Shown here: positions 9,029 to 27,141 of the stretch, in pieces
Position numbering within the stretch: position 1 is the stretch's first letter
How the letters are laid out: every line of letters starts with the position of its first letter
Assembly: GCF_030294945.1 (NCBI RefSeq)
Contig: NZ_AP018448.1
Span: 124,001 to 188,000, forward strand
From: Streptomyces graminofaciens
Lineage (GTDB): Bacteria; Actinomycetota; Actinomycetes; Streptomycetales; Streptomycetaceae
Direction of reading: 5' to 3'
Length of the DNA stretch: 64,000 nt
The notes under the pieces: model-generated
What the model was told of the DNA's origin: nothing
The model's input: only the letters and a program-made list of their open reading frames with translations
The model's database searches: none
Made by a program: the position numbers and the translations under genes

Positions 9029-9864
9029 GAGCGTCCTGCGCGCAGAATGCGCAGTGCCTCCCTCGTCACTCTCGCTGCTGTGGCGGTGAATTCCTTGACG
9101 GTCATGCGTCGCGTGTCGGGCACAGAGATGTGGCGTACTTTGCGCTGCAGCCAGGACCGCAGCCAGCCCTGTTTGCGGACAGCCTCCTCCGGGGTGAGGT
9201 TGTCGCTGGCTTTTTGGGACTGGAGCTCGACCAGGCCGAGTTCGTAGATCCATTCGGCGACGAGGCCGCGCAGGCTGTCTTCCGGGGTGGGCGGCTCGGT
9301 GGCGAGGAGGACGTCTTTGACGTGCTTGACGGTGGCTCTGCGCAGGGCCGCCTCGTCGGGGTGTCCGGCGTCGCCGAGGACGGCCTGCAGGATGCGGGAG
9401 ATCTGGGTGCGCCGTGGCAGGCTGTTCAGCTCGGTGAAGTCTAGGCCGAGTTCACGCAGTTGCGCGGCATCGCCGTTGCGCAGGGCGTAAGCGCCCGCGA
9501 GGGCCGCGGCACCGCGCGAGGAACCCTTGAGTACCTGGCGCTGCGATCCGCCGCCGACACGGCCCGGGCCTGCCGCTCCCCCGGCCCCTCCTCCCCCGCC
9601 GCCGCTGCCACGGGCCGGGGCGATCAGGGCGGAGAGCGGATAGCCTCCGGCGGGCACCGTGCCGTGGTCCGCGTCGTCCTTGTTCAGCGCGTTGGCCAAC
9701 GCCTGCACAACGTCGTCGAGGAGCTGCTGCTGACTGTCGGGCAGGTCTGTGGTGTCCGGGGAGTTGGCGGATCCCGTTCCGGTGGCGGGCAGGGCGTCGA
9801 AAGCGTCATGGGCCGCGCTCCACTCGGCGGAGCCGCTGCCTCCGTAGGAGCCCGAAGTGCCCAT
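9025..9864 (-). CDS. qatB: QatB: glycine-rich small defence protein
   Basis: 279 aa. The N-terminus is Gly/Ser-rich (MGTSGSYGGSGS) and residues 100-130 contain a long Gly run (GSGGGGGGAGGAAG). The rest is alpha-helical with the block ALRRATVKHVKDVLLATE and a basic C-terminus. No enzymatic motif is seen. It sits between a KAP ATPase and a QueC-like protein, exactly where QatB is found in known qatABCD operons. The start overlaps the qatA stop by one base (TGATG) and the stop overlaps the qatC start by four bases, so translation is coupled. Confidence 0.85.
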   Translation of the reverse strand: MGTSGSYGGSGSAEWSAAHDAFDALPATGTGSANSPDTTDLPDSQQQLLDDVVQALANALNKDDADHGTVPAGGYPLSALIAPARGSGGGGGGAGGAAGPGRVGGGSQRQVLKGSSRGAAALAGAYALRNGDAAQLRELGLDFTELNSLPRRTQISRILQAVLGDAGHPDEAALRRATVKHVKDVLLATEPPTPEDSLRGLVAEWIYELGLVELQSQKASDNLTPEEAVRKQGWLRSWLQRKVRHISVPDTRRMTVKEFTATAARVTREALRILRAGRS

Positions 9865-11561
9865 CAGGGTCCCTCCTGTTCCAGCTTGGCCGCTTCCCTC
9901 ACCATCGGGTCGATGTCCGTCGCCTCTGCCAGGCGTGCCGCCAGGTCGCGCAGTTCCCCGCTGTCGCTGTCGGCGATGTCCAGGGCGGAGGCGGGAGTGA
10001 GGTTGCTGCGCATGTCCCACAGGCCGTCGGCGATGCGGCGGCGCAGATCCTCGGTGGCGTTCGCGATGTACAGGAGGGACTCCACGAGCGGCTCGCTCTG
10101 CTGTTCCCGGCGGCCGCGCTCCAGCAGGGCCTCGACGACGGCCTGCTGCTCCGTGACCGGGCGGGCCGTCACCTCTTGCTGCGCGGTGCGCCGGTGCGGC
10201 TCCGACTGGCCGGCGAGGTGAGAGACCCAGGTGACCTGCTCCTGGGTGAGGGAGGCGGCCGCGGTGAGGCTCACCAGGGAGGCGGCCAGGCTGAGATAGG
10301 GGCCGATCGGGGCCGTGGTGAGATCGGGTTCGGACGCGGCCCAGTGCCTGCTCGCCTCACTGACCTGGTCCGGTCTGTCGTCGCGTTCCCCCTTCCCCCA
10401 GGCCTGCCAGTGCGCGAGGAGTTCACTGCGGGCGGCGTCCTGGAGTTTGACGAGGGTTTCGAAGTCCTTGCCCGGGCTGTCTTCCAGCAGCATGAGCTTG
10501 ACGATCACCGAGGGGTCGATGCTGATGCCCTGGCTCTCGGCGATCCGGGTCCGCAGGGCGAACGCGTTGAGGAAGCGTTTGATGCTGCGTGGGCTTCCGG
10601 ACCGGTCGGCCGACAGGCCGGTGGCCAGCCGGTCGGCCAGGGCGAGCGAGGCCACGTCGGGCTGCCACGGAAGATTCTGCAGGTCCGACAGGACCGGGGA
10701 CTGCCCCGCGGCACGCCGCTGCTGGGCGTGCTCGACCAGTCGTGTGTAGTGCTCCGGCGAGCACTCGTGGGCCGAGAGCAGCAGCGTGATGAAGGTGGCT
10801 GCCTCGTCGGCGCCGATCCGCGGCAGCGACAGCGGCACCTGGACGATCTTCTCCAGGTAGCGGTGGGCGAACCGCTCGCTCCGGCCCGTGGCGTCCAGGC
10901 TCGCTGCGATCGACTCGCGCACCATGTCCTGGTCCGCCGCCAGGACGAACGCGACCTTCTCCACCGACAGGAAGAGCTTGATGGCCTCCAGCGTGGCCAT
11001 CACCGCGTCGGGCAGACAGCGGTCCAGGTCGTCGACGAGCACGACCAGGCGCTTGAGCTGTGTCAGGTCCTTGAGCAGACTGGCGAACTCCTTCCGGAAA
11101 CCCGCCAGGCTCCTGGGATCGCTCTTCGAGCGGGGTGTGAGGGCCTCGACCAGGTCTGCGGACTGAGCGACCAGCGATCCCTTGGACAGGCTGGCCGCAA
11201 CGCGTGACCAGCTCACCCGTTCAAGAAGCCCATTGATCCTGTCCGGCAGGCCGTCCTGCGCCTTGTAGGCCGTCAGAAGATCCTGCAGGACTTCACCGAT
11301 CACGCCGCCACGCACATCGAACTGGTCGTCGAACTCCCAGGGATCGAGACGGATCACCCGGTAACCGTCTTGCCCGTCCAGCTCCTTGTGCAAAAGTCGC
11401 AAAACCGTCGACTTCCCGCCGCCCCAGGGCGCGGCTATCCCGATCGTCACAGGGTCCAGGTACGGGATCTCGAGCGTGGTCACCACCGTGTCGACGATGG
11501 ATGCGAAGCCCAGCAGGTCCACACCCGTGGGATTGTCGTCCCACAGTCTCATTTCGCTCAT
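9864..11561 (-). CDS. qatA: QatA: KAP-family P-loop NTPase
   Basis: 565 aa. Walker A APWGGGKST is at residues 44-52 and Walker B LVVLVDDLDRC near residue 195, with the intervening LDPWEFDDQ block typical of KAP NTPases. This one lacks obvious transmembrane insertions, so it is probably cytosolic. First gene of the operon; the ATG at 11561 follows a GGGGGG stretch. KAP ATPase + QatB + QueC-like + TatD in this order is the qatABCD anti-phage system described from defence-island screening. No key residue is missing in any of the four genes, so the system looks functional. Confidence 0.92.
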   Translation of the reverse strand: MSEMRLWDDNPTGVDLLGFASIVDTVVTTLEIPYLDPVTIGIAAPWGGGKSTVLRLLHKELDGQDGYRVIRLDPWEFDDQFDVRGGVIGEVLQDLLTAYKAQDGLPDRINGLLERVSWSRVAASLSKGSLVAQSADLVEALTPRSKSDPRSLAGFRKEFASLLKDLTQLKRLVVLVDDLDRCLPDAVMATLEAIKLFLSVEKVAFVLAADQDMVRESIAASLDATGRSERFAHRYLEKIVQVPLSLPRIGADEAATFITLLLSAHECSPEHYTRLVEHAQQRRAAGQSPVLSDLQNLPWQPDVASLALADRLATGLSADRSGSPRSIKRFLNAFALRTRIAESQGISIDPSVIVKLMLLEDSPGKDFETLVKLQDAARSELLAHWQAWGKGERDDRPDQVSEASRHWAASEPDLTTAPIGPYLSLAASLVSLTAAASLTQEQVTWVSHLAGQSEPHRRTAQQEVTARPVTEQQAVVEALLERGRREQQSEPLVESLLYIANATEDLRRRIADGLWDMRSNLTPASALDIADSDSGELRDLAARLAEATDIDPMVREAAKLEQEGP

Positions 11562-12401
11562 CACACGCCCCCCAGCCTGCTGCAGCGCTCCGCCGGCGCC
11601 ACGCGCACGCGCAATCGGTGGCCGGGCCCCGGCCAAGCGGCCCCACAGGCCGCCTCACGTACCGCTGACTCCTGTGCCGTCAACGCCCCAGCGCCGTCCG
11701 GGAGCGAATGTCCCTGACCACAACGCGCTACGCCCCCTCTTCGGCCGTCATACTTACCACAACAGCAGCAATGGCCACAGCAGCTGACACGCCGTGACAA
11801 ACATCTGCCCTGTCGCAGGATCACTCCGTACCCTCCCAGCGCCGACGCCGGAAGCTCCCTGAGCCCGGCCAGGGCTCTCACTCAGCTGGGAGGCTCAGCC
11901 GCCCCGAGCATCCGGGGCGCGCGCCCCTGCGTAGAGCACCGACCTGCCTCGTGAGACGCGGAAACTCAGCTCCGCCGGCAGCGGCAGGCCCGCGACCGCC
12001 GCCATGCTGAACTTCTACGCCAAGCACGGCGGTACGACCGACGCGCGCCTGGGGGCACATCCGTCGAGAGCGCGCCCGCTCCACGCCGTAACACGGGCGA
12101 CGGGACGACGAGGACAGAGGGCGCCCACAACCTGAAGATCAACTACGACGCGGTCACATCTGGCACCCAAGCCAAGAAACTATCTGTCTAGTTACGACAT
12201 CTTCCGTCTATTCACAGCATCACAGGTGAGATGCCCAGTCAGCCTGCCATCCAGCAACGCACCTGATGAACCACAGCAGTTCAGATGCCATACCAGTCAA
12301 GATCACAACATCATCTCTGAACTCTAAGCACAGCAGGTCAGCAGCGCTCTCACGTCGTAACTACATAGAAGATCGACAGGCCCGGAGGACTCATCAGAGT
12401 C
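11562..12401. other. Intergenic region upstream of qatA
   Basis: About 840 bp without a convincing gene. The segment from about 12130 to 12380 is clearly less GC-rich than its surroundings and has no long open frame. The qat promoter should lie in 11570-11900, but I could not pick -35/-10 boxes with confidence. A 106-codon minus-strand frame (11561-11881) was considered and rejected because of its odd composition, including a run of Cys. Confidence 0.4.
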
Positions 12402-12575
12402 TTGGAGAACCGATCAACTGACCCCATCTTTTCTGTGCAGCTCGACTATGAGTGGAACAATCCGAAAGCCGCGGCGAGGCTGGCAAAGGCACACCCCGGT
12501 GATTCGCTCTCCGCCATCGCCGAAGAGCAAGGCGTGGTTGACGGCTGGCGGAAGCTGTTTTGAACCGCTCCGGGA

Positions 12576-13535
12576 TCAGTGGAGGCTGTATGCGCTGACT
12601 CCAGCCGCCGGTTGGGGCTGGTGTTGAGCGTAGTGGTTGGTTTCGTGCTCGTGGGGCGGGATGTCTCCGATCGCGGTGTGGAGGCGCTGGTTGTTGAACC
12701 AGTCGACCCATTCCGCGGTGCCGAGTTCGACGTCGGCGAGGCCGTGCCAGTGCCTGCGGGGCTTGATCAGCTCGGTCTTGTAGAGGCCGATCTGGGATTC
12801 CATGAGCGCGTTGTCCAGGGCGTCGCCGACGGTGCCGATCGAGGCATCGATACTCGCCTCGATCAGGTGCGCGGTGAACGCGAAAGACGTGTATTGACTG
12901 CCGGCATCCGAATGATGAACGAGCCCCGGTCCAGCGGGAGTTCCGGCGCGGTCGCGGCGCCATAGGGCCATGTCGAGGGCGTCGAGGACGAGCTTGGCCC
13001 GCTTGCTGGTGGCGGCGGACCAGCCCACGATCCCCCGGGAGAACACGTCCACGACGAACGCGACGTAGACGATCCCGGACCAGGTGGCGACATGGGTGAA
13101 GTCCGCGACCCATCTTTCGTTCGGCCGGGACGCTGTGAAGTCGCGTTGCAGCAGGTCAGCTGCCCGATCATGGCCGTCGTCCCGGACGGTGGTGCGAATC
13201 TTCTTCCCTCGCCGGGCGCCCTCCAGGCCCAGGTCGCGCATCAGCCGGGCGACGGTGCAGCGGGCCACCGGTATGCCCTCGCGATGTAGTTGCCGCCAGA
13301 CTTTCCTGACCCCGTAGACGCTGAAGTTGTCCGTGTGGACGCGGCTGATCTGCGTCTTCAGTTCGGTGTCGCGGACTGTTCGGGTGCTGGGTGTGCGGTT
13401 CTTCGCCGCGTAGTAGGTGCTCGTCGCGATCTTCAGTCCGTGGCTGGTCAGGACTCGGCAGATCGGCTCGACTCCGAACACCTTCTTGAACTCGTCGATG
13501 AACGCTACGAGCGCTTCGACGGCCGGTCGAGCTCG
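12576..13535 (-). CDS. IS3-family transposase OrfB (made by -1 frameshift from OrfA)
   Basis: Contains the DDE integrase core: WVADFTHV (first Asp), LVHHSDAGSQY (second Asp) and LMESQIGLYK (Glu), followed by the IS3-type ending EWVDWFNNQRLHTAIGDIPP. It has no proper start of its own; the frame overlaps the end of OrfA in the -1 register near 13530, so expression as an OrfAB fusion by programmed frameshifting is expected. Confidence 0.88.
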   Translation of the reverse strand, partial: RARPAVEALVAFIDEFKKVFGVEPICRVLTSHGLKIATSTYYAAKNRTPSTRTVRDTELKTQISRVHTDNFSVYGVRKVWRQLHREGIPVARCTVARLMRDLGLEGARRGKKIRTTVRDDGHDRAADLLQRDFTASRPNERWVADFTHVATWSGIVYVAFVVDVFSRGIVGWSAATSKRAKLVLDALDMALWRRDRAGTPAGPGLVHHSDAGSQYTSFAFTAHLIEASIDASIGTVGDALDNALMESQIGLYKTELIKPRRHWHGLADVELGTAEWVDWFNNQRLHTAIGDIPPHEHETNHYAQHQPQPAAGVSAYSLH

Positions 13536-13831
13536 GCCGCGAAGAAAGCCGAGGCCGCCTTGAGGATCTCGTTCGCCCGCCGCAGTTCGGCGTTCTCCGC
13601 CTTCAGGCGCTTGATCTCTGCAGCCTCGTCCGAAGTCACGCCTGGACGCTGGCCGGCATCGACTTCGGCCTTGCGGACCCAGGTCCGCACCGTCTCGGCG
13701 GCACCGATCCCGAGCCTCGCGGCGACCGCCTTCATCGCGGCCCACTCGGTCGGGTAATTCGGGCGGACCTCCGCGACCATGCGCACCGCACGCTCACGAA
13801 GCTCAACAGGATAAGGGGACGGACGTGCCAT
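13505..13831 (-). CDS. IS3-family OrfA (DNA-binding, leucine-zipper)
   Basis: 108 aa. The helix-turn-helix region (AAMKAVAARLGIGAAETVRTW) is followed by a coiled-coil zipper (IKRLKAENAELRRANEILK), the standard OrfA layout. It ends shortly after the overlap with OrfB. Confidence 0.88.
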   Translation of the reverse strand: MARPSPYPVELRERAVRMVAEVRPNYPTEWAAMKAVAARLGIGAAETVRTWVRKAEVDAGQRPGVTSDEAAEIKRLKAENAELRRANEILKAASAFFAAELDRPSKRS

Positions 13832-14196: not shown

Positions 14197-14622
14197 CGGG
14201 CGTCGCGCTCCAGCCAGTCAAAGCAGCTTCGGCGAATCCCGCCGACGTTCTGCCTGGCGTGACCGTGAGCTGCCAGGATTCTTCAGCTCCTAGAGAAGAG
14301 GGCAGCAAGAGTGCCCGACCCCTGTCAGCGGTCGTCCGGTTCGGGGTATCGCTGACGGCGCCGGTCCGGGTCGCCGAGGTGGCTCGGGTCGGCTGGCAGG
14401 TGGATGTAGATCTCTCACGGCGGGACACCTTTGAGTGTGGCCCGCTCGGAGGGTGGGAACATCCGGTTTCCCGCTCGCTCCAGAGCCCGCAGCACTGCCA
14501 GTTCCGGTGCAGCCGCACTGTCCAATGTCGTCGCCATCGCAATCGGGTCCATTTGTTCGAGTAACGCCTCTAGCAGCGCTCTCCCCAGAGCCCTGCCGAC
14601 CTGGTTGATCCCGGCCTGACGC
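14197..14622. other. Gap with a decayed minus-strand coding fragment
   Basis: No intact gene. On the minus strand from about 14612 to 14430 there is protein-like sequence (GRALGRALLEALLEQM, then TTLDSAAAPELAVLRALERA) that ends at a stop near 14427 and continues in the next frame as EIYIHLPADPSHLGDPDRR. This suggests an old gene remnant with a frameshift. Its upstream end coincides with the IS630 left end, so the IS may have cut it. The family is not recognised. Confidence 0.3.
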
Positions 14623-15713
14623 TAGTGTTTTGAGTCGTTAATTCGTGTGCAGTATGCGGCGAGGGTGTCGAGGATGTCGTCGGCGGGTTTCGTCCAGACG
14701 AATGGCTTGGGGTTCTTGTTCCACTCGTTGATCCAGCCGCGGATGTCCCGTTCGAGTTCGACGACACTGCGGTGGGCCGAGCGCCGGAGCTTGCGGCAGG
14801 TCAGCTCGGCGAACCAGCGCTCGACGAGGTTGATCCAGGACGCCGAGGTGGGGGTGAAGTGCAGGTGGAAGCGAGGGTGACGCAGTAGCCACTTCTTGAC
14901 CGGCTGGGTCTTGTGAGTGGCGTAGTTGTCCAGGACCAGGTGGAGTTCGAGATCCTGGGGGACAGCGGCGTCGATGACCTTCAGGAAGCGGAGGAACTCC
15001 TGGTGGCGGTGGCGGCGGTAGTGCTGGGCGATGACCGAGCCGGAGGCGATGTCCAGGGCGGCGAACAGGCTGGTCGTGCCGTGCCGGACGTAGTCATGGG
15101 TCATCTTCGCTGGCGTGGTCGGCGCCATCGGCAGTACGGGCTGGGTTCGGTCCAGTGCCTGTATCTGCGACTTCTCGTCCACCGCCAGGACCAGGGCATT
15201 CTCGGGCGGGGCGAGGTAGATGCCCACCACGTCGCGGACCTTGGTCACGAACTGCGGGTCGGTCGACAGCTTCCAGGTCTCCACGATGTGCGGCTTGAGG
15301 CCGAATGCCCGCCAGATCCGCGAGACTGCCGACTGCGACATCCCCGCCGTCCGGGCCATCGAACGCGTCGACCAGTGCGAATCGCCCGTCGGTGGCGCCT
15401 GATCCAGCGTCCTGGCGACCAGGGCTTCGACCTGCTCGTCCGTGATCTTTCGCGGCGCCCCCGAACGCGGTCGGTCCACCAGGCCCTCCAGCCGGTCCGC
15501 GGCGAACCGGGACCGCCACTTGCGTACGGTCTCCCGCGAGACACCCAGATCCTGCGCGACCTGCGCATTCGGCCGGCCCTCCGCGCACGCCAGCACGATC
15601 CTTGACCGCAGCACCAGTGCCTGAGACGCCGTCTGCTTGCGCAACCAGCCCCGCAGCACCCTGCGTTCGTGATCGGACAACTCCAGCGACAGCGGCTTCG
15701 GACCAGGCATCAC
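14622..15713 (-). CDS. IS630-family transposase
   Basis: 363 aa. Two N-terminal helix-turn-helix regions (AQVAQDLGVSRETVRKWRSR and AGMSQSAVSRIW) precede the DDE catalytic core: LAVDEKSQIQALDR, LVLDNYATHKT and ASWINLVERWFAELT. It starts with Met-Met at 15713/15710. The stop codon TAG is made from the duplicated target TA plus the next flanking base, so the reading frame ends exactly at the element edge. Confidence 0.93.
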   Translation of the reverse strand: MMPGPKPLSLELSDHERRVLRGWLRKQTASQALVLRSRIVLACAEGRPNAQVAQDLGVSRETVRKWRSRFAADRLEGLVDRPRSGAPRKITDEQVEALVARTLDQAPPTGDSHWSTRSMARTAGMSQSAVSRIWRAFGLKPHIVETWKLSTDPQFVTKVRDVVGIYLAPPENALVLAVDEKSQIQALDRTQPVLPMAPTTPAKMTHDYVRHGTTSLFAALDIASGSVIAQHYRRHRHQEFLRFLKVIDAAVPQDLELHLVLDNYATHKTQPVKKWLLRHPRFHLHFTPTSASWINLVERWFAELTCRKLRRSAHRSVVELERDIRGWINEWNKNPKPFVWTKPADDILDTLAAYCTRINDSKH

Positions 15714-16469: not shown

Positions 16470-17042
16470 TCACCTCAGTTCGACGGAGTACGAGGCGCCG
16501 GGGAACTCCCATCCGTCGGTGCCTTCGCCGATGTCCTCGACGATGACGTCGTCGATGAAGTGATCCTCGAACTCGTCGTCGGTGAGTTCGTCGGCGAGCC
16601 AGAGTTCTTCGATCGCGTCCCAGTTGCCCCGGCTGCCGTCGATGCGCAGAGGCGCGGCGTCCACGGTGCCGCGGGTGCGTTCGTCGTCTCCGGTTTTGAC
16701 GACGCCGCTGATCTCGTACTGGCCGTCCGTGATGTGGTGGGGGATCGGGTCGGCGGGGACGATGGCGACGTTCTCGTACGCGGTGTGGATGATGTCCAGG
16801 TAACTGCGGCGGACGTTGTACTCCGCGTCGGACAGCCAGCTGATGAGCGTCTTGGCCGTGACGTGAAGACCGGCGTCCGCCAAAGCCTGCTGCCCGCGAC
16901 GGGTCGCGGTGAGCTGACTGAGCTGGGCGTGCCAGTGCTTGGCGGTGTACGACGACAGCCGGTGGCGGGGGGTGACCTGGGTGCGCAGAAGGTCGTTGAG
17001 GGCGGCGCCCAGGGATCCTCCGTGGCCGGTGGGGCCGGCCAT
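16470..17042 (-). CDS. 190-aa protein with HTH-like region, partner of the 853-aa protein (tpg-like position)
   Basis: 190 aa. The middle part (about residues 45-90) resembles a helix-turn-helix region: TATRRGQQALADAGLHVTAK followed by TLISWLSD. The C-terminal third is strongly acidic (LTDDEFEDHFIDDVIVEDIG) and ends in EFPGASYSVEL. Its start overlaps the stop of the 853-aa gene by one base, so both are co-translated. The size, the HTH, the acidic C-terminus and the position behind a large gene recall Streptomyces terminal proteins (Tpg, about 185 aa, downstream of Tap). I see no clear sequence match, so that is only a hypothesis. A DNA-binding accessory of a plasmid function is the alternative. 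Confidence 0.65.
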   Translation of the reverse strand: MAGPTGHGGSLGAALNDLLRTQVTPRHRLSSYTAKHWHAQLSQLTATRRGQQALADAGLHVTAKTLISWLSDAEYNVRRSYLDIIHTAYENVAIVPADPIPHHITDGQYEISGVVKTGDDERTRGTVDAAPLRIDGSRGNWDAIEELWLADELTDDEFEDHFIDDVIVEDIGEGTDGWEFPGASYSVELR

Positions 17043-19603
17043 CAGTCGTCACCTTCGAGGATGGTCTCGCCGGACTGGACGAACGTGCGCTTCACTTCGC
17101 CGAAGCCGGTGCCGATCCGGTACGTGGACGGCGGGGTGCCGGGCGGAGTCCAGAAGATGGCCTGGTCGACGTTGCGCAGGGCGACGAGTGTGTGGCCTTC
17201 CTCGACGGCCTTGAAGGCGACGGTCCAGTGGCGGACGGATGCCTCGGCGACCATGCTCATGCGCCAGTCCGGCCGCCAGAACGGGGAGCGCTGTGCGGGG
17301 CGTTTGGGCCACAGCAGGCGCAGCGCGATCGACAGCCGGGTCTTGTATGCCTTGTAGGGGTCGCCGCCGACCTGGACGAGTTCGGTGCGGGCCTTGCGGG
17401 TGGCCTCGTAGAAGGGCTTGAAGAGGGACTCGTTGGCCTTGCCGGTCCAGGAGTCGTGGATGGCCGGCATGGCGGCGAGGTGGTTGTCCCGGACGAGCTT
17501 CAGCAACTGCTTGATGTGGGGGGTCGTGACCCACACGTGGCCGTTCTCGTCGGGGCGGTCGATGATCCGCCCCAGGGGGTGCGGCATGTCGGTGCGGTTC
17601 CACTCCGGGATGTCGATGAGGTAAATGCCGGCGCCGGCCTTGTCGTATGCGTCAAGCGGGCCGGTGTGCAGGAGCTTGTTCGGGGCGAGGGGAACGGCCG
17701 AACAGGCGGAGGGGAAAGACCCGTTGCGGTCGATCAGGCACAGCACGCCCTCCCCGAAGGAGTCGGGCACGTCGAGCTGGTCGCGGCGCACCCGCTTGCC
17801 GTTCTCCCGGATGTGGGGAACGCGGGTGGCGGTGACGTCGGGGTGGACCCAGCGGGGCTCGCCGTCCATGTGCTCGGTGATCAGCGGCCACGGGCCGCTG
17901 TCCCGCTCCTCCTTGCGGATGACGGAGATCGGGTGCATTTTCGAGCGGCCGACCGAGTCCTTGAGGATCTTCAGGGCTGGGAAGAGGTGGCCCTCGGGCT
18001 CGTCCTCCTCATCCCCCGGCGCCAGACCGTCCTCACCGTCTTCCGCTACCTCATCCTGTCCCTGGCCGCTGTCTGCCAGGGTGTGCACAGGGGCACCGGC
18101 AGCAGCGGCCTGACCGGCGCTTCCGGCAGTGTCGGCGGACATGGGCGTGCTGAAGGGCCGCAGTGCGGCGGCGAGGCGGTGCCCTTCGTGGGTGTCCGGC
18201 ATCTCCGCTACCGCTGCGGCGGCCTGGCGCAGCGACGGCAGGATCTCCTTCAGGGCGTCCTGGTCACCGCCCGCGACCGCGGTCCGCCATGCCGCCAGTT
18301 CGTGGGTGAGGGCGGCGGGGATCCCCTGGTGTCCGCCGGAGGTGTAGGGAAGGGCGGCTTCTGCCAGTTCCAGCGCCGCGGTTCCCGTTCCGCCGGTGGC
18401 AGGCGCGAGACCTGAGCCCGCCGGGCTGTGGGCGCGGTCGGTGGGGCCGGTTCCTGCGTCGAGGAAGCGGGCGTGGAGCAGGTCGGGCTGCAGGTATGCC
18501 GAGCCGAGCGTGCCGAAGTCGCGTTCGGTGACCGTCACTTGGACCTTGCCCAGGTCAGCGGTCGCTGTGAGCGTCACGACGACGTCGGCGTCCAGGAGTG
18601 CCAGGAGCGTGGGGTCGTCGCTGTCCACGACGGCGAGGACCGGTACGTGGAGGGTGCGTGCGAGGCCGGCCAGGACCTGGGAGGCATCGGGGAGACGCTC
18701 TCCGGACAGCGGGAGGCGGGCGCTGTGGGCGGCCTGGAGGCGGTCCACGACCACGAGGGCCAGGCCCTGCATGTGCGGCGCGGTTTCCGCGATGTCCTCG
18801 GCCCTCAGGTTGGTGCCGTCATCGATCATCAGCAGGTCGCCCGCCTGGACCAGTTGCCGGGCGACCTGCTGCTCCTGCTCGGTGAGGCGGCCCTGCTTCA
18901 GGCGCGGGTAGTCGCCGCCGGTCTCGGCGGAGATGATCCGGCGGAAGATGTCGTCCCGGTTCGGTCCTGACGCCGCATACAGGACCGTGCGATGGTCGAC
19001 GAGCGCGGTCTGCCGTGCGGCGGCAAGACCCAGCAGGCTCCCGCCGACGTTCGGGGCGGCAGCGACGAGCGTCAGCCGGCCCGGCTGCAGACCGCCTGTC
19101 GCGGCGTCCAGGCCGGGCAGCCCGAACAGGGGTCCGCCGACCGGGCCGTCGGTGAGTACGGAACCGATGGCGTCGCCCAGCGTGGCGAGCCTGCGCGGCG
19201 CGTTGCTGCGGTCCTGATTGCCTTGGCTGTTCACCGCACCTCCTGCGGGCGCCGCGCCGGTGTGCGCGGCCATGTCGGACGAGAGGGCATTTGAGGCGGG
19301 GTCGGCGGGAAGCAGCACCGCGACCGGCGTGGTGTTGCGAAGGAGGACCTGCGGTTGGCCCTTCGCTGCCAGCGTGACGAGGTCGCCGAAGTCCTTCTGC
19401 GCCGTGCTGAGTACGTGGGCCGGGAAGGCATCGGTCTTCCGGGCTGCTGGGAACCGGTCCAGCGGCGCGAGCAGAGCGCGCACCTTGTGCTTGGTGATCA
19501 CCGTGGTGCGCCCCTCCTCTTCGACGAGCTTCACCAGCGAGTACAGGTGGGTCCGTGCTGCGGACGCGCTGACGGAGCTCTCTTCCTGCGGCGACTGACT
19601 CAC
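17042..19603 (-). CDS. 853-aa multidomain protein: Phd-like N-terminus, DnaB/RecA-like domain, palm-like C-terminus
   Basis: 853 aa from a GTG preceded by AGGAGG. Residues 10-50 (SAARTHLYSLVKLVEEEGRT, then TVITKHKVRALLAPL) resemble a Phd/YefM antitoxin fold, and 65-100 look like a second copy. Residues about 150-390 resemble a DnaB/RecA-type ATPase (FGLPGLDAATGGLQPGRLTL), but the Walker A is APNVGGS near 181-188, with the Lys replaced. A Walker-B-like LALVVVDRLQAA follows. A Gly/Asp/Glu-rich linker leads to a C-terminal domain with LCLIDRNGSFPSAC near 620, YKTRLSIALRLLWPKRP near 753 and LRNVDQAIF near 815, an order reminiscent of motifs A, B and C of family-B DNA polymerases. Function is unknown; a replication or telomere-associated role is inferred from the layout only. 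Confidence 0.7.
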   Translation of the reverse strand: MSQSPQEESSVSASAARTHLYSLVKLVEEEGRTTVITKHKVRALLAPLDRFPAARKTDAFPAHVLSTAQKDFGDLVTLAAKGQPQVLLRNTTPVAVLLPADPASNALSSDMAAHTGAAPAGGAVNSQGNQDRSNAPRRLATLGDAIGSVLTDGPVGGPLFGLPGLDAATGGLQPGRLTLVAAAPNVGGSLLGLAAARQTALVDHRTVLYAASGPNRDDIFRRIISAETGGDYPRLKQGRLTEQEQQVARQLVQAGDLLMIDDGTNLRAEDIAETAPHMQGLALVVVDRLQAAHSARLPLSGERLPDASQVLAGLARTLHVPVLAVVDSDDPTLLALLDADVVVTLTATADLGKVQVTVTERDFGTLGSAYLQPDLLHARFLDAGTGPTDRAHSPAGSGLAPATGGTGTAALELAEAALPYTSGGHQGIPAALTHELAAWRTAVAGGDQDALKEILPSLRQAAAAVAEMPDTHEGHRLAAALRPFSTPMSADTAGSAGQAAAAGAPVHTLADSGQGQDEVAEDGEDGLAPGDEEDEPEGHLFPALKILKDSVGRSKMHPISVIRKEERDSGPWPLITEHMDGEPRWVHPDVTATRVPHIRENGKRVRRDQLDVPDSFGEGVLCLIDRNGSFPSACSAVPLAPNKLLHTGPLDAYDKAGAGIYLIDIPEWNRTDMPHPLGRIIDRPDENGHVWVTTPHIKQLLKLVRDNHLAAMPAIHDSWTGKANESLFKPFYEATRKARTELVQVGGDPYKAYKTRLSIALRLLWPKRPAQRSPFWRPDWRMSMVAEASVRHWTVAFKAVEEGHTLVALRNVDQAIFWTPPGTPPSTYRIGTGFGEVKRTFVQSGETILEGDD

Positions 19604-20659: not shown

Positions 20660-21559
20660 TCATAACCATTCGCTGATCGCGGCGATCAGGACGGTGGCTT
20701 CGAAGCGGACGGCGAGTTTGTCGAACCTGGTGGCGACCGCACGGTTGCGCTTGAGCCGGTTGATTCCACACTCGACCGCGTGCCGGGCCTTGTAGTCCTC
20801 GCGGTCGAAAGCCGGAGGCCGCCCGCCGGCCTGCCCGCGTCGCTTGCGGTTGGCGGCCTGGTCGGCAGGCTCCGGGATCGTGCAGCGGATTCCCCGCTTT
20901 CGCAGGTAGGCCCGGTTGGCTCGCGACGAGTACGCCTTGTCGCCCCGCACTCGCAGGGGGCGGACACGCGGACGGCCGGGCCCGATGCGGAGAACCCGAA
21001 TGCCTTCCAGGACGGCGGCGAACTGAGGACTGTCACCACGCTGGCCTGCGGTGACCAGCAAGGACAGCGGCCGCTGGCCTTGTTCACAGGCCAGATGAAT
21101 CTTGGTGGTGAAGCCGCCCCGTGACCGGCCCAGGCCGTGATCGTCGGGCTCGATGCGGGTGCCGCCCGGCGGTTCCTTCTGGACCTGTCCGTCACGGCGG
21201 GCGCCTGCGGCGTGCTGATGGGCCCGGCAGATCGTGGAGTCGACGTTGACCTCCCATGTGATCAGCCCTGCCGCATCCGCACGGGCCTGCAGTCGGGTCA
21301 GCAGTTCGGGCCAGGTGCCGTCGCGTTGCCAGCGGCGGAAGAGTCCGTAGACCGTCTGCCACGGCCCATACTCCTGCGGCAGATCTCTCCACGGAGCACC
21401 GGTCCGCACCCGCCACCGGATCCCATCGATCAGCCTCCTCCGCCCCACCGCCGGCCGGCCCAACACCGCGACCGGCAGCAACGGCTCCAGCGCCGCCCAC
21501 TGCTCGTCAGAAAGATCCCCTCGCCCCACACCGTGATCATCACGGCGCAGGGCGAACAA
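20660..21559 (-). CDS. IS5-family transposase
   Basis: Up to 299 aa from a TTG at 21559; a GTG at 21529 is an alternative. Typical N-terminal [14 protein letters not shown] and [17 protein letters not shown], then the DDE core: [15 protein letters not shown] (Asp), [20 protein letters not shown] (Asp) and [20 protein letters not shown] (Glu). The frame is intact. Confidence 0.9.
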
Positions 21560-21807
21560 CGAAGCCCATTTCTAAAACACGGCCTAGAGGACCTGGATCG
21601 GGCCCGCGGTCAGCTGCGGGTCCGCCGCCAGGGCCGCATGGAGCGCGTGGTCTATCTCGACGAACTCACCATGCACCTGGCGACCGCCTGGATCATCGAG
21701 CGCGCGAGCGATGGCCTGAGAAGCCGTTGCTCTATCGATCTTGGTGAGCGTGAGTTCGAGGTCGTCGACTCGGTCGGGTGATCTCTTGGTTGGCCGCGCA
21801 TGAAGGT

Positions 21808-21862
21808 GGGGCCTCCCGCACAGCTCGTGGGTGTCGAATCCAGCCGAGCAACAGGAGGCCCC
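21808..21862 (+). promoter_or_regulatory. Leader hairpin sequestering the transposase ribosome site
   Basis: GGGGCCTCC (21808-21816) pairs with GGAGGCCCC (21854-21862). The right arm contains the GGAGG ribosome site six bases before the GTG start at 21865. A nested stem GCTCG/CGAGC (21823-21827, 21845-21849) lies inside the loop. The same two-stem architecture, with different sequence but preserved pairing, exists in the copy at 54017-54075. Confidence 0.65.
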
Positions 21863-21864
21863 TG

Positions 21865-22773
21865 GTGCTGCAGTCTTCCGTGCGGACGTGGATGTCGTCC
21901 AACTCGGCTTCCCTGTCGTGTGATTGTCTCGCTCACCAGTTCGGGAACGCCGCGGACAGGCCGCACAGGCGTCCGAGGTATCCGTCGGACATGAGCGATG
22001 CGGAATGGGCGGTTGTGCGTGACGCGATGCCGGTGCCGGGCTGGCTGGAGGGCCGCGGCGGGCAGCCTGAGGGCTACTGCCACCGGCAGATGGTGGACGC
22101 GGTGCGCTATCTCGTCGCGGGCGGCATCGCCTGGCGGGCGATGCCCGCGGACTTTCCCGCGTGGGACCGCGTCTACGCCTTCTTCCGGCGCTGGCGCGAC
22201 AACGGCCTGACCTCCGAGTTCCACGACCGGTTGCGCGACCGTGTCCGCGGGGCCGCGGGCCGCGATCCGGAACCGACGGCCGGTGTCATCGACGCGCAGT
22301 CGGTGAAGGCATCCGCGTCGGTGCCTGCCGCGACCAGGGGATTCGACGGCGGGAAGAAGGTCAACGGCCGCAAGCGGCACATCGTGGTGGACACCCTCGG
22401 ACTGCTGCTGGCCGTGACGGTGACCGCGGCCTCGGTCACCGACCGGGACGCGGGCCTGACGCTGCTGGCCCGGCTGCACGAGCGGCACTGGCGCATCACG
22501 CGGGTGTGGGCCGACGGCGGCTACACCGGACAACTCGTCGACTTCACCCGCGAGGTCCTGCGCGTCGCATTGACCGTGGTCAGACGCAGCGACAACACCA
22601 GCGGCTTCACCGTGCTCCCCAAAAGGTGGCTGGTGGAACGCACGTTCGCCTGGCTGATGCACTCACGCCGCCTGGCCCGCGACTACGAGGCGCGCGTCGA
22701 CACCTCCGAAGCGGTGATCCGGTGGTCGATGAGCATGGTCATGAGCCGCCGGCTCGCGCGGCGGGCACGCTGA
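21865..22773 (+). CDS. IS5-family transposase (copy 1, intact)
   Basis: 302 aa from the GTG that follows GGAGG. The N-terminal SCDCLAHQFGNAADR and RYPSDMSDAEWAVVRDAMP are conserved in the second copy, supporting the early start. DDE core: GVIDAQSVKAS (Asp), VWADGGYTGQLVDF (Asp) and LVERTFAWLMHSRRLARDYE (Glu). No lesion is seen. Confidence 0.85.
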   Translation: MLQSSVRTWMSSNSASLSCDCLAHQFGNAADRPHRRPRYPSDMSDAEWAVVRDAMPVPGWLEGRGGQPEGYCHRQMVDAVRYLVAGGIAWRAMPADFPAWDRVYAFFRRWRDNGLTSEFHDRLRDRVRGAAGRDPEPTAGVIDAQSVKASASVPAATRGFDGGKKVNGRKRHIVVDTLGLLLAVTVTAASVTDRDAGLTLLARLHERHWRITRVWADGGYTGQLVDFTREVLRVALTVVRRSDNTSGFTVLPKRWLVERTFAWLMHSRRLARDYEARVDTSEAVIRWSMSMVMSRRLARRAR

Positions 22774-25481: not shown

Positions 25482-27141
25482 GAGGCTGTCGCACGGCTCC
25501 TGCCCGGTGAAGGTCAAGGGTTCTTCTTGGGCGTGTGGTTGATGAGTTTGTTGATGTTGTGCACCGTGCCGAGGAGCTTGATCTCGGCGTCCACCGCCTG
25601 GCGGCCGCGGTAGTTGAGGTGTCGTCCGAAGCGTTGGAAGATCTGGGCGAATCCCGGCTCGACCAGGGCACTGCGTTGACGGTACTGGGCCCGTCCTGTC
25701 GGGGTGGCGAGACGGGCCGCCATGTCCTGCTGGCCGGCAGGAGCCTGCTGACGTTTCGCGGGAAAGCCTGCCTGGTCGGCATCGCTGGTGACCGAGACCA
25801 GTAGCGGGAGGTCGGTGAGGGCCTCGAAGGACGCGGCGGAGGCGTATCCGCTGTCGGCGAGCCAGAGTTGGATGTCGCCGGGGAGCCGTGCGGCCTGGTG
25901 ATTGTGCTGGGTCTTCTTCACCATCGGAACGAGGGCCGTCCTGTCCGAGGGATTGTCGTGCGCTTCGATGGCCAGCAGGAATTGACGGCGGGCGCACACG
26001 ATCTGGATGTTGTATCCCTGCAGGTAGCCGCCGCGTTTGCCGGGAATCAGCCGGGAGTCGGGATCGCTCAGGCAGGCACGGGACTCCGGCGAGGGGGCCG
26101 GTCGGGGTGTGCGGGCCCGCTCCAGCCAGGCACGCATCTTCACCAGTCGCGTTCGCTGGCGAACGAGGACGGTCTTGTGCTCCATCGGGACCGGCGGCCG
26201 TCCGTTCGCGCCACGACGTCCTGCCGCCCGGTCCTCTCGGACGCGGAGCTCGTACTTCTTCAGCTTCTCCTGGTGAGCCTCGCTCTCGGCGGCCAGGCGC
26301 TTCTCCGCGCGGGCCACCATCCGCTCGGCGGCTTCGACTTTGATCCGGATCTCGGTGGGTGAAGGCATAGCGCGTTCATGCAGTCTGTCCCTGGCCAGGT
26401 AGGCCCGGGTGAGCCGGTCGCACAGCCGGGACAGGCGAGGCCAGTTGTCGCACGCGTCATCGCCATCGTCCTGTGCTGCCGAGCCGTCGGCCTCGACGCT
26501 CAGCGCGTGGTCGACTACATCCTCCATCAGCGCGTGGATCTTTGTCTCGCACTGGGAGATGGTCTCCTCCAGGCGCTGGAGCCGCTGGTTGGCGTCACGA
26601 GAGGCGTTCGCCTCCATCGGTGAGCCGTCCACGGCCACCGCCGAGAGATCGACCAGGCCACGTCGGCCGCACAGCGACAACACCTGCACGAACAGCGAGT
26701 TCAAGGCAGCACGGTGACGTTGTACGAACCGCGCGACGGTGGAGTGGTCCACTCGCCGGTTCGCGGTGATGATCCGGCAGCCCACGTCGTCCCAGCAAGC
26801 CTGCTCGATGCGACGGGAGGAACGCACTCCCTTGCTGTAGCAGTACAGGAGCAACGCAATCAGGCTCGCGGGAGGGTAGGCCACCCCGCCCTGCCCGTCG
26901 TCACGGTAGCTGTTCTCGAACGCCGACAGGTCAAGCAGCTCGACGACGTCGAGCACCTTCCAGCACAGGTGCTCGGGCGGCAGCCACTCCCGCACATTCC
27001 GCGGCATCTCAAGATCACGTTCACGGTCGCCCGACAAGAAGTTCCGCCCCACCAGCCAAGAGTCCGACGTGTCCCTGATCCCTGGAACCGAACAACGAAT
27101 CGCTCTTGACCTTCACCGGGCAGGAGCCGTGCGACAGCCTC
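25482..27141 (-). mobile_element. IS1182-family insertion sequence
   Basis: 1660 bp with nearly perfect terminal inverted repeats of about 37 bp starting GAGGCTGTCGCACGGCTCCT. It is flanked by TGCA at 25478-25481 and 27142-27145, a 4-bp palindromic target duplication. The transposase is intact. Confidence 0.93.
25514..27052 (-). CDS. IS1182-family transposase
   Basis: 512 aa. The N-terminal DUF772-type region (WLPPEHLCWKVLDVVELLDL, YPPASLIALLLYCYSKGVRS SR) is followed by the DDE core: VDLSAVAVDGSPMEANASRD (Asp), LWLADSGYASAASFEAL (Asp) and the C-terminal RSALVEPGFAQIFQRFGRHL NYRG (Glu region), with a coiled-coil insertion in the middle. No frame disruption. Confidence 0.93.
   Translation of the reverse strand: MGRNFLSGDRERDLEMPRNVREWLPPEHLCWKVLDVVELLDLSAFENSYRDDGQGGVAYPPASLIALLLYCYSKGVRSSRRIEQACWDDVGCRIITANRRVDHSTVARFVQRHRAALNSLFVQVLSLCGRRGLVDLSAVAVDGSPMEANASRDANQRLQRLEETISQCETKIHALMEDVVDHALSVEADGSAAQDDGDDACDNWPRLSRLCDRLTRAYLARDRLHERAMPSPTEIRIKVEAAERMVARAEKRLAAESEAHQEKLKKYELRVREDRAAGRRGANGRPPVPMEHKTVLVRQRTRLVKMRAWLERARTPRPAPSPESRACLSDPDSRLIPGKRGGYLQGYNIQIVCARRQFLLAIEAHDNPSDRTALVPMVKKTQHNHQAARLPGDIQLWLADSGYASAASFEALTDLPLLVSVTSDADQAGFPAKRQQAPAGQQDMAARLATPTGRAQYRQRSALVEPGFAQIFQRFGRHLNYRGRQAVDAEIKLLGTVHNINKLINHTPKKNP

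Follow-up and report, generated by a model that had tools for sequence, protein, structure and literature searches.

A candidate telomere end-patching gene pair in Streptomyces graminofaciens with a predicted phi29-like polymerase domain

What is the function of a two-gene operon in Streptomyces graminofaciens whose larger product joins Phd-like repeats, a DnaB-like domain and a C-terminal domain with polymerase-like motifs? The operon lies in the window analysed here, a stretch of 64,000 nucleotides (NZ_AP018448.1, positions 124,001–188,000) that is part of an 11.6-Mb single-contig genome. An original prediction, made from the sequence letters, described two open reading frames (ORFs) of 853 and 190 amino acids (aa) that overlap by one base, and proposed a divergent telomere capping or priming system or a plasmid replication pair. 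Both ORFs were confirmed at their positions on the minus strand, where they meet in a TGATG junction. Very probably, the pair patches telomere ends in the manner of tap-tpg, on linear chromosomes and plasmids alike: a phi29-like polymerase would add the first nucleotides to a terminal protein. Its features, in window coordinates, are as follows.

17042..19603, minus strand: DnaB-type telomere-associated protein (Tap-class), 853 aa, GTG start; from the ORF, homologues and the ratio of nonsynonymous to synonymous substitution rates (dN/dS)
19475..19579, minus strand: first Phd/YefM-like repeat, residues 9–43; PF02604 best stretch
19298..19411, minus strand: second Phd/YefM-like repeat, residues 65–102; TIGR01552, and PF02604 in two stretches
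18443..19192, minus strand: DnaB/RecA-like domain, residues 138–387
19034..19063, minus strand: degenerate Walker A, residues 181–190, Lys absent; position 188 is never Lys in 87 rows
17045..17986, minus strand: predicted phi29-like family-B polymerase domain, apparently without exonuclease, residues 540–853
17705..17737, minus strand: motif A, LIDRNGSFPSA, residues 623–633, with D625 and N627 invariant; from alignment
17153..17176, minus strand: motif C, RNVDQAIF, residues 810–817, with D813 invariant; from alignment
16470..17042, minus strand: candidate terminal protein (Tpg-like), 190 aa; from the ORF, the TGATG junction and a profile match to Tpg in its helix-turn-helix (HTH) region
16776..16949, minus strand: HTH region of the candidate terminal protein, residues 32–89; hhalign to Tpg
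16692..16694, minus strand: Thr117, possible priming residue; from conservation in close relatives and a Tpg-like acidic context

The gene pair is not a product of chance, because dN/dS against two plasmid copies is 0.27 and 0.31 for the 853-aa gene and 0.22 and 0.27 for the 190-aa gene, and because a scoring of 7994 candidates gave the 853-aa protein at least 487 relatives (E ≤ 0.001). Among the matches listed, 119 homologues are 74–94% identical to it at 87–100% query coverage. By these sequence comparisons, both genes look to be under selection.

Predicted fold and relatives of the two proteins

Pfam detects two Phd/YefM stretches and a DnaB_C domain in the 853-aa protein, in agreement with the Phd-like N-terminal repeats and the RecA/DnaB-like domain that had been read from the sequence. 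The replaced Walker A lysine (APNVGGS) also proved to be a family trait: position 188 is G in 48, S in 24, A in 15 and K in none of 87 aligned rows. Judged from these residues, the DnaB/RecA-like module is probably ATPase-dead. Identity as a DnaB replicative helicase was put aside on account of the missing lysine and of a match confined to residues 138–387.

Foldseek and VIA searches with the whole 853-aa model returned only DnaB/RecA folds among the matches listed (best 50), and the C-terminal domain was therefore folded alone. The resulting model is a phi29-like polymerase fold with a palm. With this predicted structure as query, 18 of 26 rows at E ≤ 0.001 in a viral structure library were named DNA polymerase. 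The hhalign comparison of the family with a three-sequence phage PolB profile gave an in-register alignment of low probability (E 0.008, Prob 4.9), with six shuffles at E ≥ 0.31; Pfam and PHROG searches matched no polymerase family in the protein. By structure prediction, the 853-aa protein is the bearer of a hidden phage-type DNA polymerase fold. It shares with phi29 polymerase the domain fold, the motif A pattern D-x-N-x-x-(F/Y) and the motif C Asp, and the protein-primer logic of phi29 polymerase and its terminal protein may be common to both. Unlike phi29 polymerase, to which it is only about 12% identical, it is fused to Phd and DnaB modules, and its structure-matched range opens only at phi29 residue 189, which we take to lie past the phi29 exonuclease domain; the domain upstream in the 853-aa protein is DnaB-like.

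The C-terminal domain had been said to hold motifs A, B and C in the order of family-B polymerases. Motifs A and C stand: D625 and N627 of motif A and D813 of motif C are kept in 87 of 87 aligned rows, and Asp625 and Asp813 are likely metal ligands. For KTRLSIALRLLWPK, the stretch proposed as motif B, the placement is correct, but its conservation is not supported: the lysine falls at K754 in 34 rows and at K755 in the other 53.

Profile comparison places both proteins beside the Tap and Tpg families. The 853-aa family aligned with 16 Tap proteins at Prob 75–82 and E 1e-5 to 2.6e-5 over 214–235 columns that start around motif A and stop close to the C-terminus (one reversed and 16 column-shuffled controls, all Prob ≤ 0.6). 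An alignment of 13 terminal proteins matched 16 Tpg proteins in the HTH region at Prob 83–85 and E 6.4e-6 to 9.4e-6 over 58–73 columns (one reversed and eight shuffled controls, all Prob ≤ 2.7). The parallel to tap-tpg in order and size that had been noted holds, and the accompanying statement that no sequence identity is evident needs amending, since profiles detect both families with controls far below. The two proteins nevertheless fall outside the named families as delimited by their cut-offs: NF047542 (Tap, 600 bits) is not among the 18 NCBIfam rows of the 853-aa protein, and the 190-aa protein has no NCBIfam row, hence lies under the Tpg cut-off (NF047541, 90 bits). Shared with Tap-Tpg are the operon order, the partner size, the one-base-overlapping downstream terminal-protein gene, a C-terminal domain homologous to the Tap body and a partner HTH region homologous to that of Tpg. 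By contrast, Tap begins with an HTH where the 853-aa protein has Phd repeats and a DnaB domain without the Walker lysine, the partner here is acidic, and the accompanying telomere, described below, has mostly GGA rather than GCA loops.

The 190-aa protein matches no Pfam or NCBIfam family. No Pfam HTH was found in it, so that the HTH claimed earlier is upheld as a region, through the profile match to Tpg, and not as a Pfam domain. The partner, for which an acidic C-terminus had been described, is acidic, with an isoelectric point (pI) of 4.7. Its C-terminus had been given as EFPGASYSVEL, which is correct in sequence and one residue short of the true end, SYSVELR. All 22 close partners have T117 and G118, and after these come D119 (21), D120 (22), E121 (20), R122 (22) and R124 (22); 12 of 16 Tpg proteins carry (S/T)-acidic-acidic-x-R-x-R at positions 115–128, and Thr114 is given as the known priming site of Tpg (PMC3572947). 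We offer Thr117 as the priming residue as a suggestion only, because the position is often Asp in the wider set (D 49, T 31, Q 12, S 10, A 9 and N 6 among 121 aligned partners). Tyr89, invariant in 121 aligned terminal-protein homologues, was also considered; its place on the border of the HTH region may point to a structural role.

A natural chimera joins the two families, and a second protein suggests a module swap. In one genome (G094), a single 1090-aa ORF (L052, G094:C1 6732–10004) consists of the Phd and DnaB parts (residues 5–119 and 141–419 of the window protein) followed by a Tap body (Tap 59–696). This chimera scores 360 bits to NF047542, under the 600 cut-off, and its neighbour gene passes the Tpg cut-off (102.5 bits against 90). 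On plasmid NZ_CP109133, a 523-aa HTH protein bears the polymerase domain of the 853-aa family (iE, the independent E value, 3.5e-17 in a set of 16; E 5e-18 in the record), and directly downstream, with a one-base overlap, comes the gene for a 191-aa relative of the 190-aa protein (E 6e-7). The HTH end of the 523-aa protein matches NF047542 at E 3e-18, a strength similar to that of the best Tap match in many genomes and therefore unspecific for Tap; this half of the module swap is only suggestive.

Further relatives were seen along the way. NZ_CP109471, which also carries a close pair, has a second Tap-class polymerase-domain match (491263–491832, 35% identity) about 18 kb from its right end. 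A 2017-aa frame, measured stop to stop (L043, G025:C2 1901–7954), has a distant DnaB-type protein at its end, and some listed relatives of that distant protein bear an extra domain, PF13401.

Linear replicons and an accompanying telomere sequence

The idea that homologues might lie near the ends of linear replicons was borne out, with homologous pairs on linear plasmids and within the terminal repeats of linear chromosomes. In a sample of 150 Streptomyces genomes (match threshold E ≤ 1e-20), the 853-aa family occurs in 21, of which seven hold close copies (54–100% identity, own genome included) and the remainder distant members or fragments. One close copy (G146) has an internal stop, and fragments occur in G140 and G089. 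In G049, G068, G129 and G025:C2, the terminal repeats of both ends contain distant members, roughly 2–18 kb from the end. Eleven plasmid records carry both genes over at least 80% of their length. The distance from pair to record end is 5.0 kb in NZ_CP109230, about 7 kb in NZ_CP109098, 16 kb in NZ_CP108710 and about 8 kb in NZ_CP013744 (deposited as circular); it is 42–200 kb in the remaining seven.

The pair tracks one telomere sequence. The left 121 nucleotides of NZ_CP109098 match 9 of 72,556 plasmid records, with the best place in each lying no more than about one base from a record end (one of the nine has a second match place), and eight of these nine telomere-bearing records carry the pair. 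Across 257 billion bases of GTDB contigs, a 27-nucleotide core of this telomere has seven exact places in five genomes, each about 75 nucleotides or less from a contig end. All five genomes contain an 853-aa homologue (74–85% identity, one 54%), compared with 7 of the 150 sample genomes, a set with which they overlap (G152 is apparently G123). G151 has one copy and one core on a single contig, separated by about 30 kb; in the other genomes the two lie on different contigs. The co-occurrence has p values of 8e-10 for plasmids (assumed universe 150) and 2e-7 for genomes, both too strong as the replicons are related.

When six such ends were folded with RNA parameters, mostly GGA or GGGA loops appeared on the 3′ strand. 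Among the twelve ends that could be aligned, two-sided change with the pair kept was seen in 12 of 45 predicted base pairs; several of the predicted pairs are also broken, which tips the covariation term slightly to the unfavourable side (+0.41). Two linear plasmids, NZ_CP108710 and NZ_CP107864, have a different telomere type at each end: the right end is of the present type, and the left one has a CTTG loop and lies 5.2 kb from a Tpg gene. NZ_CP108710 has three further Tpg matches. The distant family accompanies another end type. The first 150 nucleotides of G129 match four plasmid records over 34–54 nucleotides, the listed place always being the record end; NZ_CP108060 and NZ_CP108678 (taken to be G025:C2 and P0215) carry the distant protein and P0309 carries a terminal-protein homologue.

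The genome of origin has no Tpg match at E ≤ 0.001 and only weak Tap matches (best E 1.6e-8), and a search with the HTH-type protein as query found the 853-aa window protein as its sole polymerase-domain match. With the queries used, the pair is therefore the only end-patching candidate in this genome. Its chromosome contig is probably trimmed, because both ends (L006, L007) resemble coding sequence rather than telomeres and differ from one another in their first bases; the chromosome itself may bear the GGA-loop telomere.

Proposed function and competing explanations

Anatomy, predicted polymerase fold, Tap and Tpg profiles, the link to linear ends and telomere co-occurrence together support the earlier proposal of a divergent telomere priming system. 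The findings that had been named as fatal to it, a C-terminal fold other than a polymerase palm and homologues with no link to linear or plasmid replicons, both came out the opposite way. In the model we favour, internally initiated replication would leave a 3′ overhang that folds into GGA-loop hairpins. The 853-aa protein would bind this folded overhang through its Phd and DnaB/RecA-like modules and, by analogy with Tap and Tpg, position the 190-aa terminal protein there. The C-terminal phi29-like domain would then begin synthesis by joining the first nucleotides to a terminal-protein hydroxyl, perhaps that of Thr117, and the host would extend the resulting primer. We infer the catalysis, the DNA binding and the priming residue. 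For the archetype, Tap and Tpg are reported to suffice in vitro for a 13-nucleotide primer on Tpg (PMC4513846).

Several observations weigh against this model. The 190-aa partner is acidic, unlike the high-pI Tpg proteins (pI 9.5–10.5 in 16; 13 partners span 4.7–10.9), and the motif B lysine shifts position. Tap compared directly with the phage PolB profile gave E 0.75, no better than its shuffles (0.24–0.61), and the polymerase fold of Tap therefore rests on the link through the 853-aa family. CP075613.1 has a GGA-type telomere at its record end with neither an 853-aa homologue nor a Tpg match. Three of the 11 pair plasmids, NZ_CP109206, NZ_CP107978 and NZ_CP013744, are without the telomere; the first two end in other palindromes (GCA loops, by folding of NZ_CP109206 only) and have Tpg genes aboard. 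NZ_CP109230 and NZ_CP109098 have the pair towards one end and the telomere at the other; the record end closer to the pair has no such palindromes and looks incomplete. Tpg exceeds its cut-off in three of the five genomes with the telomere core and is missing at that level from two. Linear-plasmid backbones are related, and the counts are not independent. The family does not significantly replace Tap, which is missing over its cut-off in 11 of 21 genomes with the family and 41 of 129 others (p 0.08). The assembly of the genome of origin has no telomere at its ends, and the sequence of this telomere is absent from it.

The other half of the original proposal, a plasmid replication initiation pair in which a helicase-like Rep and a DNA-binding partner act at an internal origin, would suit the DnaB-like domain, the plasmid-borne copies and their distance from the ends in such records as NZ_CP109476 and NZ_CP109221. 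It is very unlikely given the loss of the Walker A lysine in 87 of 87 rows, the predicted protein-primed type of polymerase, the Tap and Tpg homology with the G094 chimera, the relatives in chromosomal terminal repeats and the telomere tracking. Also improbable is a reading in which the two genes are degenerate or silent remnants of a linear plasmid that entered the chromosome arm by recombination. Transposase-like ORFs nearby (judged by eye), the fragments in G140 and G089 and the internal stop in G146 fit such decay, but both frames are intact here, dN/dS is 0.22–0.31, the catalytic Asp residues are present, and the genome has no Tpg match or Tap over cut-off that could take over. A Phd-type antitoxin fusion or defence system, in keeping with the Phd domains and with some public annotation as ‘prevent-host-death family antitoxin’, is scarcely credible for a protein with a predicted polymerase fold and a Tpg-like partner that has no Pfam or NCBIfam family.

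Another explanation is compatible with the end-patching model and touches its novelty: the distant and perhaps the close family could be the named Tac/Tpc of SCP1 or GtpB/GtpA of S. griseus, leaving only the fold new. These are likewise non-archetypal Streptomyces telomere pairs (PMC7205883, PMC3572947). In Tac-Tpc, too, the terminal protein has an HTH (PMC3572947). This pair is the one reportedly used by Kitasatospora viridifaciens (PMC7188733), and Kitasatospora is frequent among distant-family matches; GtpA has 18% identity to Tpg (PMC7205883). We regard this identity as possible and rather doubtful. Published descriptions of Tac-Tpc point the other way: Tpc is larger, at 259 aa (PMC3572947), against 169–212 aa for 120 partners among the matches listed, and Tap and Tac are said to resemble no other protein (PMC4513846), yet DnaB_C is easily detected here.

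A wider superfamily and the surroundings of the pair

The evidence leans towards Tap and its DnaB-type and HTH-type cousins forming one superfamily of exonuclease-less, phi29-like, protein-primed polymerases with exchangeable N-terminal modules (an HTH, or Phd plus a dead DnaB), each suited to one telomere class and one terminal protein. Such a superfamily, if true, would contradict the printed view that Tap-type proteins have no polymerase motif and Streptomyces no family-B polymerase. Yang et al. 2015 report nucleotide addition to terminal proteins by Tap and Tac, state that neither contains a DNA polymerase motif, assign them to a new polymerase class and write that Streptomyces genomes do not encode a B-family polymerase (PMC4513846). 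The window pair would be a missing link, its domain resembling phi29 polymerase in predicted structure and Tap in profile comparison, and would help to explain DNA synthesis by telomere proteins seemingly without polymerase parts. Candidate catalytic residues can now be named, one telomere sequence is tied to one protein pair, and a shared ancestry of bacterial telomere replication and phage protein-primed replication is suggested. A 2021 survey considers undiscovered end-patching systems likely for several telomere classes (PMC8743542), and GtpB-GtpA and Tap variants are described in PMC7205883. Within open-licence PMC literature (titles and abstract openings, with subscription papers outside), we found neither a family-B domain in Tap-class proteins nor this DnaB-type pair described.

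Around the pair, transposase-like ORFs, so judged by eye, occupy window positions 12394–13831, 14622–15713, 20660–22773 and 25514–27052. On the minus strand at 9864–11636 lies a 590-aa ORF with a P-loop, PWGGGKST, which by eye has the look of a KAP-type NTPase.

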